From contig WQVF01000007.1 in assembly GCA_009781725.1 (NCBI GenBank), positions 1 to 64,000 of the forward strand: a DNA stretch of 64,000 nucleotides, in the 5' to 3' direction. Under the pieces are notes generated by a model. That model saw only the letters and a program-made list of their open reading frames with translations, was not told where the DNA came from and did not search any database. Below are positions 57,102 to 63,821 of the stretch, in pieces. Positions within the stretch are counted from its first letter, which is position 1. Each line of letters opens with the position of its first letter. The position numbers and the translations under genes were made by a program. The stretch is from Defluviitaleaceae bacterium. GTDB taxonomy: Bacteria; Bacillota; Clostridia; Lachnospirales; WQUN01.

Positions 57102-58907
57102 TTACTTATCGTCGGAGTTGAGTTTGTCATCCAAGCGTTTTTCGCGGTTGTAGCGTGCTTCGTTGGCTTTGTATTCTCCTGCGGCTGCGGCCTGCTTCTT
57201 GGTTATGGTTACTATGCCGTAGGCCGCTATTCCTAGGCCAATCATGGACCCGAATATTGCGAAGGATATGGTTAGCGGGCTGGTGGGTGGGTTGGGTCTA
57301 TAGCCGGGTTGGTTGGAGGGTCGTGGTGTAGCCGACGGGCATGGCGCGCCAGTGGGTGTGGGTGAGGGCCTTGGTGTCGCCGATGGTGAAGGTCTTGGTG
57401 TGGCGGAAGGTGATGGTGAAGGCGATGCTGTAGGCCCTGGTGATGGAGAGGGGGTAGGTGAAGCTGTAGGCCCAGGTGAAGGTGAGGGGGATGGAGAAGG
57501 TGATGGTGAGGGGGATGGAGAAGGCGATGGTGAGGGGGATGGAGAAGGCGATGGCGAGGGGGATGGAGAAGGCGATGGCGATGGAGAAGGCGAGGGCGTT
57601 GGAGTAGCTATTGGGAAGTTACCAACATGCAACTGCTCGTCAGTTTGCCCTGTAGGAATGTGTAGCACAAATTGAGGGTTTCCGGCATGTGCTGTGATTT
57701 GAGTAGTCATTTGTCCGGCTGCGTCCGTGGAAAATTGCCAATGGCCGCCAGGAAGTATCCAGCCAGCTGGTACTTGGGTTTCTCTTATACGATAGGTTGC
57801 GCTTGAAGTAAACTCTGCTTCAAAATTGACCCATCCATTTGCATCGGATGTAGCAGTTTCTACAGGAGTCCACAGGCCATTTGTACCATTACCGTTGCCG
57901 TTATTACGCCGCTCGAGTGCAAATGTTGCGCCAGGCAATCCCTCTATAACGCGAGGAGTGTCATACAATGTATGAGTCGCTTTTCTGAAATAAAGAGTGC
58001 CTCCAGGGGGTGGCGGGACTGGCGTGGGTGTTGCTTCAGGTTCCCAACGGGCAACAAATATAGCATCAGCCACTACAGTATGAGTATCACCGGTTACCCG
58101 TTCGCCGTTATATGTCCAGTAAAGGAAGACATAACCAGGGCGAGTAGGTGTTGGGAAATCCAATACTGTACCGTATTCGTGGTGTGATACTTGCTCTACA
58201 TCGTCAGGAAGAGTACCGCCGTCAGGGTCGAACTCGATACGGTATAGGTGTGGTGGTGGGGTGGGTGTTTCAATAAGAATAACAGGCTTGAATGCAGCGA
58301 AGAATATCCTGCCGTGAGTTATTGTGGTAGGTGTAGGGTTGATGGCAAAAGGATGGTCATCACTGATTGGCGGGTGTGAACCCAAAGTTTCCTGCATTGC
58401 ATACAAAACCCAACCAACATTTCCGTTTGCTAATAACTCTGCCCAACCGATAAATAGATATCCTGGTTTTGTCGGATGTGGAGGCAGATAGTTTTCATAA
58501 TTTGCACTATTTATAACCCCACCAGGAACATGGACAATTTGATATTGAGAGCCATTAATTACTCCAGGGTCGGCGATAAATATAACGGAGGGGCTTTCGG
58601 CATCGCTATAGTCGACCTCAATATTACTACCGATTGTGGGATCGACAGGGGCAGGGCTGGGGAGGGTTATTTCTCCATTCCCATTACCGTTTCCGTTCCC
58701 ATTACCGTTTCCATTACCATTTCCGTTCCCATTAGGATCGCTTACTTCGCCGTTTTCATATCCATTGCCATTTTCATCGGCAACCATGTTCCTTGAGGGT
58801 GCTAGTACCCCTAGGGCCATTGCAATTACCGCTACTAGAGCAATCATTAACACTCTTGATAATGTCTTTTTCTGTAATTGCTCACTGTTTACTATTGGTG
58901 TATTCAT
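57102..58907 (-). CDS. SpaA/InlB-repeat surface adhesin (putative pilus-associated)
   Basis: In this 601-residue protein a signal-anchor segment (about 18-38) is followed by Gly/Asn repeats (about 63-80), an InlB-type beta repeat region (about 225-290), a Cna-B/SpaA domain with the E-box [12 protein letters not shown] (about 310-400) and a Pro/Ser repeat stalk (about 425-520). A hydrophobic segment (about 545-565) and a charged tail of about 35 residues close it. No LPXTG-like signal is seen before the last membrane segment (PNPPTSPL is the nearest), so it may be held by the membrane rather than by sortase. It is the third gene of the pilus locus and a plausible tip or base subunit. Confidence 0.82.
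57400..57600 (-). repeat. Pro-Ser-encoding minisatellite
   Basis: Tandem copies of a 12-18 base unit of the form ggtgatggagaggg, encoding (Pro-Ser)n on the minus strand. Likely to vary in length by slippage. Confidence 0.8.
58676..58742 (-). repeat. Gly-Asn-encoding tandem repeat
   Basis: Repeats of the unit ccattaccgttt encode (Gly-Asn)n within the adhesin. Confidence 0.75.
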
Positions 58908-58973: not shown

Positions 58974-61271
58974 CTAATCTGGTACTCGTTCAGCAAATAT
59001 CAGTAATCTCTGATTGTTTACCCTGAAAGGGTGACAGGTTAATAGCGTTATCATGTCCCTGCCTTCTTGCACCATGATGTAGCCTCTTTCCTCGAAGGCG
59101 AGGCGGTCAGGGATAATTGTGTAACCAAAAACTTGGTATCTTAGGGTCTGGTACGGGTTACGGATATAGATTATTGCGTCGGTGTTTTTTAGTTGGTCCA
59201 GGTCGCAAAACATTCTTGCGATTGTAAGGCCACGGTGGGCGGTTATTACGGAGTTGGTGTTGATACCGCCTACGGGTAAAGATGTTTGGGTCATATGGCC
59301 TGCCCCGCGCAGTAGGTTAAAGTGGTTGGAGCCTGCGAATATGGGCAGCCGGACATTAATATCCGGTATTTCTATAATGCCGAGCATTTCTTCGGTAAAG
59401 CCAGCCAGCTCTTGGACGCTAAAGTCTACTTCTTCCGTTGACTCAAGGGATGTGAGCTGGGATTGCTCGTCTTCGTGTAGGTCGTAGTTGTAGTTGCCCA
59501 TCTGATTGGTGAGCCAATACATTGGGTCGGTTTCCAAGCAGAAGTTAAAGATAAAATCTAGGTCGAAATCCTCATCGTAGTCGAAGCCCTGGGTGATTAC
59601 TTCATTGATAGGAGCATCTCCGATATACAGACCGCCGCTGGGGCCGATGGAGAGATTGCTCAAAGAAACATTGCCGCCGTTGTTGGTGATAAAGATTCCG
59701 CCGCCGATATTGATATATAGATAGCCATTGTTATCTATATATAGGCCGACTTCTTCCGGGTGGGGTTGAATATTGCCGCTTACAAGCGCACCATTGGTGG
59801 CGATAAAGAGGTCACCTACGGTGAGGTTGCCGTTTTCCCCTAGAGGCACTCCCCCAAGGGTGAGATATCCGTCAGTGTTTACGGCCAGTTGGCTTACATT
59901 CTCAAAGGTAAGATTACCGATGGTGACATATACTCTGTCTTCTTCCCCGTAGTAATAGTTGCCTGGTACGGTATGATGCATAATTTGGCCGCCGTTGACA
60001 TAGCCTACGGGCAAGTCGCTTACTGTGGTGAGAAAAGCAGCCCGCATGTTAATCCAGCGGCGTTGGATATAGTGCCGGGAGTCATCAAGACTGTCTTCCC
60101 AGTCACGAATATAGGCTTGAGCGGCTCTGTCGGTTACAACGCGTCTTACTTGTGGGTAGAGTAGTACTCCTGCGCCGCCAAGCATAATACATAAGGCAAG
60201 GCCAATCATTACATAACGACGAACAAATCTATGGGAGCTGCGGCGAGGCGCATTGGCGCGTTCCAAAACTTCCAAGGGAGTGACACGCTCATATACATAG
60301 GTATGAGAAACCCTTTGGACAGTTTGGACAGACTCGCCTTTTCTGTTGACTTTGGGAGCACCGGGAATAGAGACATAATCGTCTTCTTCCTCGTCGTCAT
60401 CAACTGTAATATTGGTAACAGTGGTAGAGACCAGTCTCTTTTTCCAACGGGTACGGACAATACGCACGGTTTGGTATAGAGCAAAGATAACAACAAAGCC
60501 CAAGAATGCACCCATGGCAGTAGCAAGACGCCAGTTGGCTTCTACAACAGAGATAACCGGCTCAATAGCCAGTGCCATGTCTTGTACATAAGGTACACGA
60601 GTACCCCGTACCAGTAATCGATGACTATTGATGGTAAGGGGTGTACAAGTAATTAACGTAACAAAATCCTCTCCGTAGTAGAGGGTAAGCAAGTCCACTT
60701 CATGAGGTTCGACGACATCAAACTGGATTACTTCATAAGCCAGGCGTTGGCCCAGTACATTGATAAAAAAGAGCTCGCCATACCCGAATCGCTCGTCCAG
60801 GAGGTCAGTAAACATACGAGCATTAGATAGCCCAGAGTGAGCGGTAATAACAGAGTGAGTACCGGGTCCCCCAACAGGGAAAGATGTACCCGCCAAGTGA
60901 CCGGCACCAATGTCAAGGACATGAGAACTGGTACCATGGCGTATAGGCATGCTGACATTTATGACAGGTATTTCTACTGTTGCCATAATACCGCTAACAT
61001 TGAGGGTGCTCATGTACTCCTCTGGCAGAGCGTCGATTTCTGCAAAGGGGTCGTTGATATTGATTGCGGTGATCGATTCGTTAAAGTCGATGGCACGTTG
61101 GAGGGCGGCGTCTATAAGATCTTCTTGAATGTTGGCAACTTCGGCTTGATATGTATCAATAATACCGGACTGGATACGACCGTTCCACCAACTGGCAACG
61201 TCTGGGTAAATAAAGAACCCAACCCCGACGAGCATGAGTATTATCAACATGATGGTAGAGAATACTCTCAT
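58974..61271 (-). CDS. Tandem double class C-like sortase fusion
   Basis: This 765-residue membrane protein carries two sortase domains. The first (about 90-225) has a lid-like DPF at 74-76, His145 (ITAHSGL), Cys209 (LITCTPL) and Arg218 or 222. The second (about 630-765) has His679 (ITAHRGL), Cys746 (LLTCHPF) and Arg755. Membrane segments lie at about 5-22, 250-270 and 352-372. Between them sits a Gly/Asn-rich beta-repeat segment (about 448-555). Class C sortases polymerise pilins; single enzymes are about 250-300 residues. It lies between the backbone pilin gene and the adhesin gene. There is no stop or frameshift between the domains. Confidence 0.9.
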   Translation of the reverse strand: MRVFSTIMLIILMLVGVGFFIYPDVASWWNGRIQSGIIDTYQAEVANIQEDLIDAALQRAIDFNESITAININDPFAEIDALPEEYMSTLNVSGIMATVEIPVINVSMPIRHGTSSHVLDIGAGHLAGTSFPVGGPGTHSVITAHSGLSNARMFTDLLDERFGYGELFFINVLGQRLAYEVIQFDVVEPHEVDLLTLYYGEDFVTLITCTPLTINSHRLLVRGTRVPYVQDMALAIEPVISVVEANWRLATAMGAFLGFVVIFALYQTVRIVRTRWKKRLVSTTVTNITVDDDEEEDDYVSIPGAPKVNRKGESVQTVQRVSHTYVYERVTPLEVLERANAPRRSSHRFVRRYVMIGLALCIMLGGAGVLLYPQVRRVVTDRAAQAYIRDWEDSLDDSRHYIQRRWINMRAAFLTTVSDLPVGYVNGGQIMHHTVPGNYYYGEEDRVYVTIGNLTFENVSQLAVNTDGYLTLGGVPLGENGNLTVGDLFIATNGALVSGNIQPHPEEVGLYIDNNGYLYINIGGGIFITNNGGNVSLSNLSIGPSGGLYIGDAPINEVITQGFDYDEDFDLDFIFNFCLETDPMYWLTNQMGNYNYDLHEDEQSQLTSLESTEEVDFSVQELAGFTEEMLGIIEIPDINVRLPIFAGSNHFNLLRGAGHMTQTSLPVGGINTNSVITAHRGLTIARMFCDLDQLKNTDAIIYIRNPYQTLRYQVFGYTIIPDRLAFEERGYIMVQEGRDMITLLTCHPFRVNNQRLLIFAERVPD

Positions 61272-61397
61272 AACGCGACCTCCCTTCGTAAGACTTTATG
61301 TACAGACACTTTTTATCAACTTTTATAACTGTAAAAGATGGGGCAGGGGATAACCCTGCCCCATCTTAGGCCCAGCGTATATTAGCTAGGGTAGATA

Positions 61398-63821
61398 CTA
61401 TTGGATGGTACGTACGACTTTGGCTTTATCTTTCTTGCGAGCAAGGAAGAGGAAGAGGCCTGCAATACCCATGAGAGATACGCCAGCAGCGGTAAACATG
61501 ATTGTGCCAGCACCACCAGTCATTGGTAGTGTAAAGTCGCGGGTGTTGGTGAAGCGGAATGAGTGGGTAACGTTACTGTATACGCAGTCACCAGGATTTG
61601 ATAAACAGGTTTCTGATCCCGGGTGAGTAAAAGTACAAATCAGAGCTGGGAATATTACACGCTCGAAACCTACTACACGATTGTATCCGCCATGAGGTGC
61701 TAATGCTTCGAACAGATACCAGTTGGTAGCTGGGGGAGTTGGCAAAGAATCAACCAAGTTAACGAAGCGAGCGATACCGCTTTCGTGAAGAGTAGATATA
61801 GCAAGGTTAGCATATACTACTGCCCATTGGTTATGCCTGAAAGTTTGCTCTGCGCCAGCAGGTGTTGCATGCGTGGCACCATTAGATGCTACGAAGTCAA
61901 CTGGAGGAGTAGTAGCATTAATGGTTTCAGTACGTTGGCTGTTAATCCAAGTACCTGTTCTACCACCAGAAATAGCAATTCTGGTTGGTACTTCACCAGC
62001 AAGTGGTGTACGGATTGCATCGGCAGAGGTGCCAGACATTTGATCGTCGCGGAACAAGAAGAATACTGCACCGTCAAGGGCTTGGTCGTTGGGGTTGGTT
62101 TTGAAAACATCTAGGTCACGGATAACCGTTCTGGTATCTGTGTCATCTGGCCCACCGGTTGTGCTGGTAGGACGATTGCCGAAGTTGATATACGCTTCGT
62201 TGTAGATAGCACCAGAATGAACTTCTGTAAGGTCATTCATGACAGTTCTGAAGCGGATTTCAACACCCCAGGACGTTGCACCTGATGGAAGAGTTGCTGG
62301 ACGGGCAGCGTGAAGGGCGTCTCTACCTACTTGAGTAATGTTGAGCCAGAAGGTTTGCTGGCCGCGAGCACCCGCAGGGGTAGTTTGATTTGGATATGGC
62401 AACATAGCTGCGGCAGCTGTTTCTGCTAAAATAACTTCCCAATTTGTTGTTGCGGCACCAGCAGCTCCTCTAGGGAATGGTACTGGAGCACCAACAACGA
62501 CACCGGCATCATTTCTGGCTACAGTGTAGAGTGAGAACCATGAACCACCAACAGCTGGAACTAGAGGATTAGCGAGTGTATGAGAATTAGGTGCAAGGCC
62601 GGTAAGAGGGCCGGTTGGAGCATTGTGTTGCCAGTCATATGTCGCGGGTAACAAACGAAGCCTGTGATCCAATGTATCCTGAACTAGGATATGTGGTCTG
62701 GCTGTCCACGGGGCGACGGTGGCAGGTGGTGCGGGCATTGGAGAAGCATGAGGTGCACCTGGTGCACCAAACTCATTCAGTCTTGAATTTGGTACTGCCG
62801 CTAACATTTGAATATCTTCCGAAATTTCCAAATAAATTGCCCAGTCGATAATTGCATATTCGGTAGCGATAGAGTTTCCAACGAGTCCTGGGGCTCCGCC
62901 TACACCGATATTAATATCGACTATTCCCTTGCCTTCCTCACTATCGGCAGGTTGTTTTGGGAATACGTGTACACGATAAAGCCATTGGCCAGGTTGATCT
63001 GGTGCGGGAGCAGGGTCTGGTCCATCACCTGGGAAATGCCTGAAGTGTGGCATGTTGACTAGGAATGGAGGAATAATACCATAGTCAGGGGTTCTGACTT
63101 GGTCTCTTCCGTTGATTTGAGGAAGTGGATCGGCTACGGTATTGTATACTTCCCATACCAGCCAAAGGCCATGACCAGCATCATCAGAACTGACTCGCAT
63201 CTCAGCAGGAGTAAAGAGTGCTATGCGGTCTCTTTCTGCTGGAGTTACTAAACCATTAGAGCCTGTTATTGCTTGGAGTACACCGTCAATTGCAACTCCA
63301 GATGCAACACCAGCAGGGGCACTGCCAGCATTGGCAACAGCAGGTGCTGAACCAGAACTTGTTACATACCAACCAGCATGACCTGTAACAGGGCGTCTTG
63401 CTGGCAATGGAGATGGCTGTATTCCGCCGAGCTGACCAGCTATGATAGCGTCACTTACAGCTTGAGGAATTCTTGCTGCGCCCTGTACAGATGGGGGATC
63501 CATAGGATCGTCATAAGTCAGGTGCTCGAAGTGGGCTGGCGGAAGTATACGTGCTGCACGCCAGATTGTGCCGGTTGCAGGGTCGCGGTTCTCAGTTATC
63601 GTTGGTGGGTTGCCTGGCAACCATTCACCGGGGTTGGGTACTGGTTGACCCAGTGTTCCTATTGTATGGTGTACATACAATGAAATGTCTTGATTTGGGT
63701 TCCGCACTGGCACTGGCAGTGGGGTTGGGGTTGCGGGAGCTGCAAACACCGGCAAAGCTCCTGCCAGCATCGCAAACGCGAGTACTGCTGCAATGAATTT
63801 CTTAATCATTGCTTTTCTCAT
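61398..63821 (-). CDS. Major pilus backbone pilin, LPMTG anchored
   Basis: This 807-residue protein has a signal peptide (residues 1-28, cleavage after VFAA). It has a classical pilin motif W-x3-VHVFPK at 280-289, with Lys289 as the likely polymerisation lysine. An E-box-like YLFEALAPHGGY lies near residues 710-721. The C-terminal sorting signal is LPMTG at 765-769 with a hydrophobic segment and an Arg/Lys tail. Together these define a sortase-polymerised backbone subunit. AAGGAGAG precedes the ATG. First gene of the locus, upstream of the double sortase. Confidence 0.92.
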   Translation of the reverse strand: MRKAMIKKFIAAVLAFAMLAGALPVFAAPATPTPLPVPVRNPNQDISLYVHHTIGTLGQPVPNPGEWLPGNPPTITENRDPATGTIWRAARILPPAHFEHLTYDDPMDPPSVQGAARIPQAVSDAIIAGQLGGIQPSPLPARRPVTGHAGWYVTSSGSAPAVANAGSAPAGVASGVAIDGVLQAITGSNGLVTPAERDRIALFTPAEMRVSSDDAGHGLWLVWEVYNTVADPLPQINGRDQVRTPDYGIIPPFLVNMPHFRHFPGDGPDPAPAPDQPGQWLYRVHVFPKQPADSEEGKGIVDINIGVGGAPGLVGNSIATEYAIIDWAIYLEISEDIQMLAAVPNSRLNEFGAPGAPHASPMPAPPATVAPWTARPHILVQDTLDHRLRLLPATYDWQHNAPTGPLTGLAPNSHTLANPLVPAVGGSWFSLYTVARNDAGVVVGAPVPFPRGAAGAATTNWEVILAETAAAAMLPYPNQTTPAGARGQQTFWLNITQVGRDALHAARPATLPSGATSWGVEIRFRTVMNDLTEVHSGAIYNEAYINFGNRPTSTTGGPDDTDTRTVIRDLDVFKTNPNDQALDGAVFFLFRDDQMSGTSADAIRTPLAGEVPTRIAISGGRTGTWINSQRTETINATTPPVDFVASNGATHATPAGAEQTFRHNQWAVVYANLAISTLHESGIARFVNLVDSLPTPPATNWYLFEALAPHGGYNRVVGFERVIFPALICTFTHPGSETCLSNPGDCVYSNVTHSFRFTNTRDFTLPMTGGAGTIMFTAAGVSLMGIAGLFLFLARKKDKAKVVRTIQ

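Follow-up and report, generated by a model that had tools for sequence, protein, structure and literature searches.

A two-sortase fusion protein encoded beside a pilin-like gene in a Defluviitaleaceae bacterium

The window, meaning the whole 64,000-nucleotide stretch of contig WQVF01000007.1 that was analysed, contains a putative pilus locus in which one gene encodes two sortase domains in a single reading frame (Table 1). An LPMTGG-anchored candidate pilin is encoded upstream of it. This matches a feature of Spa-type loci, wherein the gene for an LPxTG major pilin adjoins that for a pilus sortase. The predicted pilin includes a pilin-motif-like sequence, WLYRVHVFPKQ, and the strict WxxxVxVYPK pattern is not found in the orthologous pilin of a second genome (G032). 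A GC-rich hairpin is located between the pilin and sortase genes. It is nearly identical in the orthologous G032 locus, where the gene order is also kept, and plausibly acts as an attenuator or terminator, or as a stabiliser of the mRNA. Downstream of the double sortase is a gene for a repeat-containing surface protein with a signal-like C-terminus, and no tip adhesin is encoded within the double-sortase operon.

Table 1. Locations of the features under discussion (window positions, unless a locus is named)
Feature	Position	Strand	Basis or remark
Major-pilin-like gene, 807 aa; LPMTGG anchor at 61515-61529	61398..63821	(-)	Upstream of double sortase
Perfect GC-rich hairpin, 14 bp, between pilin and double sortase	61335..61367	(-)	-32 kcal/mol, z -5.4
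Double-sortase ORF, 765 aa	58974..61271	(-)	Open throughout; two Sortase domains; full-length orthologue
TM1, residues 3-21	61209..61265	(-)	Hydropathy 2.73
Class C lid motif D74-P75-F76, domain 1	61044..61052	(-)	Alignment
Sortase domain 1, residues ~93-232, H145/C209/R218	60576..60995	(-)	Profile, PDB matches, alignment
TM2, residues ~249-272, basic cytoplasmic flank RTRWKKR	60456..60527	(-)	Hydropathy/flanks
Predicted cytoplasmic linker, residues 273-352	60216..60455	(-)	45% identity to orthologue across 276-345
TM3, residues 353-371, N-terminal anchor of second sortase	60159..60215	(-)	Hydropathy/flanks
Gly/Asn-rich beta-repeat segment, residues ~426-565, type I doubles only	59577..59996	(-)	Alignment; low-confidence predicted strands
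Sortase domain 2, residues ~627-765, H679/C746/R755, lid replaced by LES[TS]EEVDFSV	58977..59393	(-)	Profile, PDB matches, alignment
SpaA/List_Bact-repeat surface protein, long Pro/Ser stalk, NPPTSP-TM-conserved tail	57102..58907	(-)	Downstream of double sortase
Signal-like module NPxT[N/S]P-TM-~33-aa tail (RYxREKR)	57105-57293, motif 57276-57293	(-)	Also L046-L062
Type II paralogous doubles	L011:7581-9584, L016:4977-7031, L017:6413-8266		Tyr at Cys of second domain

The double-sortase reading frame starts with an ATG that is preceded by a strong Shine-Dalgarno sequence (AAGGGAGGT). Pfam model PF04203 is matched twice within the continuous 765-residue frame (E 5.8e-41), which upholds the claim of the earlier note that one polypeptide carries two complete sortase domains. 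There are only two named orthologues among the genome contigs scanned with the double sortase, WRAN01000017.1 and WQVY01000024.1, and both are from a Defluviitaleaceae bacterium. The former is colinear with residues 1-765 at 62% identity, and the latter, from another metagenome-assembled genome (MAG), consists of the second half only of a third double sortase. The isolate codes of both orthologue MAGs match those of samples from Labiotermes and Embiratermes in a study of termite-gut MAGs (PMC7024585). When the window gene is compared with its orthologue by the Nei-Gojobori method, dN/dS is ~0.145 for domain 1 (0.219/1.51) and ~0.156 for domain 2 (0.236/1.51), ratios that are rough with dS near saturation; dN for the predicted cytoplasmic linker is 0.60. 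By this measure, purifying selection is similar on both sortase domains.

Sortase genes often adjoin or overlap each other, and one other genome (G364, described below) has a doubtful joined frame with a Shine-Dalgarno-like AAGGTG ahead of an internal ATG. Perhaps, then, an assembly error, a frameshift or read-through has fused two genes on paper. We regard this as very improbable, given that the colinear full-length orthologue resides in a separate MAG, that dN/dS is near 0.15 for each sortase domain and that the three-membrane-segment topology fits a joined protein. In addition, no Shine-Dalgarno sequence precedes the candidate internal starts near TM3 in either species, and separate translation of the second half is therefore unlikely.

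A domain search of each half, as proposed in the earlier note, finds both above the 160-bit cut-off of the NCBIfam class C model NF033745 and with intact triads. The separately scanned N-terminal half scores 231.8 bits, while the C-terminal half scores 163.7 bits and thus exceeds the cut-off only marginally. The class B profile TIGR03064 matches neither half, and the nearest solved structures of both are class C pilus sortases. Foldseek also recovers a class C fold from a low-confidence model of the C-terminal half (pLDDT 46, 13 sequences), and a full-chain AlphaFold2 model built from three sequences was set aside for its pLDDT of 36. When the protein is aligned with some 50 further sortase sequences, the catalytic residues are identified as His145/Cys209/Arg218 and His679/Cys746/Arg755, with Cys209 residing in a TLxTC-type motif (TLITC). 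These are the residues named previously, except that Arg222 had been kept as an option for domain 1; Arg218 is of the catalytic type and residue 222 is not.

The two domains differ in their lids, as had been noted. The DPF of domain 1 is kept in G032 and provides the DP[WFY] that is expected before strand 1. In domain 2 the DPFxY position reads LESTEEVDFSV, and DP[WFY] is absent from all three type I orthologues (defined below). With every class C feature examined in place, domain 1 is classified as a class C sortase. For domain 2, descent points to class C, as does the profile by a small margin, but the missing lid sets it apart from canonical members and we call it class C-derived.

Basic residues flank each predicted membrane segment (MR before TM1, RTRWKKR after TM2 and RRSSHRFVRR before TM3). 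These flanks predict an N-in arrangement in which both catalytic domains are outside and residues 273-352 are cytoplasmic. The worry that both domains would face outward only if the central region folded accordingly is largely settled by this positive-inside pattern. Domain 1 is flanked by membrane segments on both sides, as is typical of class C, and domain 2 lacks a C-terminal one. Such a three-segment layout would be expected if a class C sortase bearing a membrane segment at each end were followed, in one chain, by a sortase anchored at its N-terminus alone. The linker, together with TM3, is the least conserved part of the protein.

The segment between TM3 and domain 2 that was suggested to form a short beta-solenoid does contain conserved Gly/Asn-rich strand repeats. 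However, its strands are predicted at low confidence (pLDDT 26-42 in the C-half model), which neither supports nor refutes a solenoid fold. Pfam and PDB searches with this segment return no match.

The origin of the double sortase can be read from its relatives. Pilus operons in other Clostridia are arranged as adhesin, LPxTG pilin, srt1 and srt2, and in six genomes (G301, G372, G326, G382, G349 and G702) the pilin-srt1-srt2 order is found with sortase genes that are adjacent and sometimes overlapping. This agrees with the earlier statement that usual pilus loci have separate single-domain sortases. On a maximum-likelihood tree built from 50 sortase rows, the N-terminal domains of the genus group together as a single clade (100/99) among the class C first sortases, and all of its C-terminal domains group with separate second sortases (99/93). 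This placement, combined with the adjacency of srt1 and srt2 elsewhere, indicates that the double sortase arose when SrtC1 and SrtC2, neighbours in a Spa-type pilus operon, were fused. The earlier note had taken homologues consistently encoded by two genes as evidence against a true fusion. Outside the genus there are indeed two adjacent genes, but within it they are fused, and so the fusion is real yet lineage-specific.

Among 38 genomes of the family, double sortases turn up in the three that represent the genus and in no other. No further examples are found in a 391-genome sample of the class or a 299-genome sample of the phylum. The 392-genome sample of the order, wherein two candidates were scored per genome and a strongly diverged double could be missed, yields a single additional joined srt1-srt2 frame. 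This frame (G364, L034:4025-5437) encodes 470 amino acids, retains both catalytic Cys residues and adjoins an LPLTGG pilin. It has only two membrane segments, which together with the Shine-Dalgarno-like sequence mentioned above suggests that two proteins may be made. Thus the proposed recurrence of the architecture beside pilins in other Clostridia is seen in one further genome only, and there the topology is doubtful. Across roughly 1,000 sampled genomes, then, the fusion is restricted to the genus, apart from this compact and topologically doubtful case. A tblastn search of plasmids gives no record in which a single place covers at least 80% of the double-sortase query. In three scans of viral contigs, two of the queries give 13 class C matches, judged by match spans only, and the remaining query gives no match. 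We found no description of a two-domain, tandem, fused or pseudo-sortase protein in the open-access literature searched.

There are two types of double sortase in the genus. Type I comprises the window protein, G032 C17 and G033 C24, and is characterised by a lidded domain 1 and a domain 2 with LES[TS]EEVDFSV in place of DP[FW]. Only domain 2 is readable in G033, where the contig ends within the gene; the triads are intact there and in both domains of the window and G032 proteins. Type II comprises G000 C10, G032 C14 and G033 C4, and is a second double in each genome of the genus. Its domain 1 has an intact triad and no lid. Its domain 2 keeps the lid and has Tyr for the catalytic Cys in all three species, with the His also lost in G033. 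The type II genes adjoin ppdK in two of three species, and an additional single sortase gene is located upstream in all three. Moreover, the genus contains four stand-alone relatives of domain 2 in which Thr or Pro replaces the Cys. As second active sites are easily lost in this lineage, their retention in type I argues that they are used. Type II indicates that a fused second domain can persist non-catalytically. Here a domain is called active when its triad is intact.

Several other sortase-related genes were encountered. The four singles with Thr or Pro for Cys are located at L012:4620-5360, L021:3909-4652, L019:6987-7769 and L020:1322-2041, and two of them adjoin LPLTGG pilin-like frames. 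Two proteins, at L013:4265-5278(+) and L019:1701-2801(-), join an XRE-type helix-turn-helix via a membrane segment to a class C sortase domain, such that the DNA-binding part would be cytoplasmic and the sortase outside; in the G033 protein, Tyr takes the place of the catalytic His. A class C sortase at L031:2260-4878 has a charged C-terminal extension of ~600 residues past its second membrane segment. Two long frames that resembled doubles were rejected: the 880-residue frame of G675 is one sortase with a long charged tail, and the 769-residue frame of G245 corresponds to three separate adjacent sortase genes.

The C-terminus of the downstream surface protein belongs to a signal-like family. 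Strong matches are found on 9, 9 and 7 open reading frames in the three genomes of the genus, some of them giant, and a single-sequence search of the 392-genome order sample detects no case outside them. A family profile search outside the genus adds one weak match (G035, E 0.0023, 46/68 positions). The pattern N-P-x-T-x-P is present in 23 of 23 aligned copies, mostly as NPQT[NS]P, and a gene with this ending is located directly 3' of the double sortase in six of six cases. One NPQTNP-tailed protein (L058:4114-6394) is encoded beside mreB and mreC-, mreD- and penicillin-binding protein-like genes. The genus genomes also encode LPxTG proteins, and each has two class B-like sortases.

Which enzyme might read this signal? 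One possibility is that the double sortases, through one or both domains, are dedicated to it and so serve 7-9 proteins per genome. The signal is matched strongly only in the three genomes that have double sortases, and the gene order just described is consistent with such a role. However, these genomes are a single clade, so the co-distribution amounts to one evolutionary event, and the type II doubles retain the signal gene though their second domain lacks its Cys. The presence in every genome of class B-like sortases, a class known for NPQTN, also speaks against this explanation, and we consider it unlikely. A somewhat better prospect, though still a doubtful one, is that the NPxTNP proteins, the pilus base among them, are anchored by the class B-like pair (C12), leaving only LPxTG pilins to the double sortase. 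NPQTN is the motif of Staphylococcus aureus SrtB (PMC3297441), and the pair is found in all three genomes. Yet the class B-like sortases match TIGR03064 only below its cut-off, show no gene adjacency and, judging from the shape of the matches, are apparently family-wide, which the signal is not. These explanations can hold together with one another and with the others discussed here, and their likelihoods need not add up to certainty.

The fused architecture by itself is highly likely to be correct, and we consider it probable that the protein is a pilus enzyme in which both domains are active. Three membrane crossings would leave both sortase domains facing the wall and physically coupled. 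Domain 1, with its class C lid, would most likely build the polymer from the adjacent LPMTGG pilin by forming pilin-pilin bonds. Domain 2, tethered nearby, would most likely perform a second, coupled transfer, in which the downstream SpaA/NPxT[N/S]P protein is attached in an ancillary or basal position, some other subunit is added, or the polymer is ended. The growing pilus might thereby be handed between active sites inside one molecule. This particular division of labour, with domain 1 as pilin polymerase and domain 2 as the second transferase, is a tentative proposal.

Several observations weigh against a pilus enzyme that is active in both domains. Domain 2 is marginal against the class C cut-off and lacks the lid, the operon has no tip adhesin, the strict pilin motif is not matched in the G032 pilin, and NPxTNP resembles a class B motif in a genome with two class B-like sortases. 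Perhaps domain 2 is mainly structural or regulatory, as a substrate holder or membrane spacer on the way to becoming a pseudo-sortase, leaving domain 1 as the sole catalyst. The loss of Cys from the second domain of every paralogous double, with His also gone in one, and the four singles with Thr or Pro for Cys speak for this view. In type I, however, domain 2 keeps its His, Cys and Arg in all three species, and its dN/dS equals that of domain 1. We therefore find this alternative improbable, and favour the reading with two active domains. A broader proposal places the double sortases at the centre of a surface-display system specific to the genus. In it, a two-site enzyme that spans the membrane would link the polymerisation of LPxTG pilins to another transpeptidation on a novel three-part signal (NPxT[N/S]P-TM-33-residue tail), with a conserved pseudo-sortase as second domain of the paralogues. 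This would be the most far-reaching reading, and it is speculative and rather unlikely.

The double sortase has a triad, an N-terminal membrane segment and a pilus operon in common with class C sortases such as group B Streptococcus (GBS) SrtC1/SrtC2, S. pneumoniae SrtC1-3 and C. perfringens SrtC, and its domain 1 also resembles them in the DPF lid and its own downstream membrane segment. The known class C enzymes are single-domain, whereas here two are fused, and the second has neither lid nor C-terminal membrane segment and is preceded by a beta-repeat insert. The tandem srtC1-srtC2 pairs of clostridial pilus operons, such as those of G372, G301 and G702, have the same gene order, and each half of the double sortase groups with its counterpart in the tree. 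Unlike the double sortase, these pairs are two genes, lack the beta insert and have a mostly lidded srt2. For the class B system of S. aureus (SrtB-IsdC), the likeness is between NPQTN and the NPxT[N/S]P of the downstream protein. The tail here, with ~33 conserved residues, differs from short basic tails, and no class B profile matches the double sortase. The GBS PI-1 pilus offers a precedent for two pilus sortases with different minor pilins: SrtC1 and SrtC2 each polymerise the backbone, but the minor pilin that requires SrtC1 is not the one that requires SrtC2 (PMC3166054).

Where a pilus operon encodes two or three class C sortases, as is often the case, their separate roles are difficult to tell apart, since the enzymes stand in for one another. 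A natural fusion of a SrtC1-SrtC2 pair in which both sites are kept argues that both act on the same growing pilus. The double sortase would be a tethered two-site enzyme with a fixed ratio of its activities, from which either Cys could be removed singly, and the paralogue with a dead second domain provides a built-in comparison. For this termite-gut bacterium, the fusion could tie two steps of pilus assembly together at a single cell-surface site.
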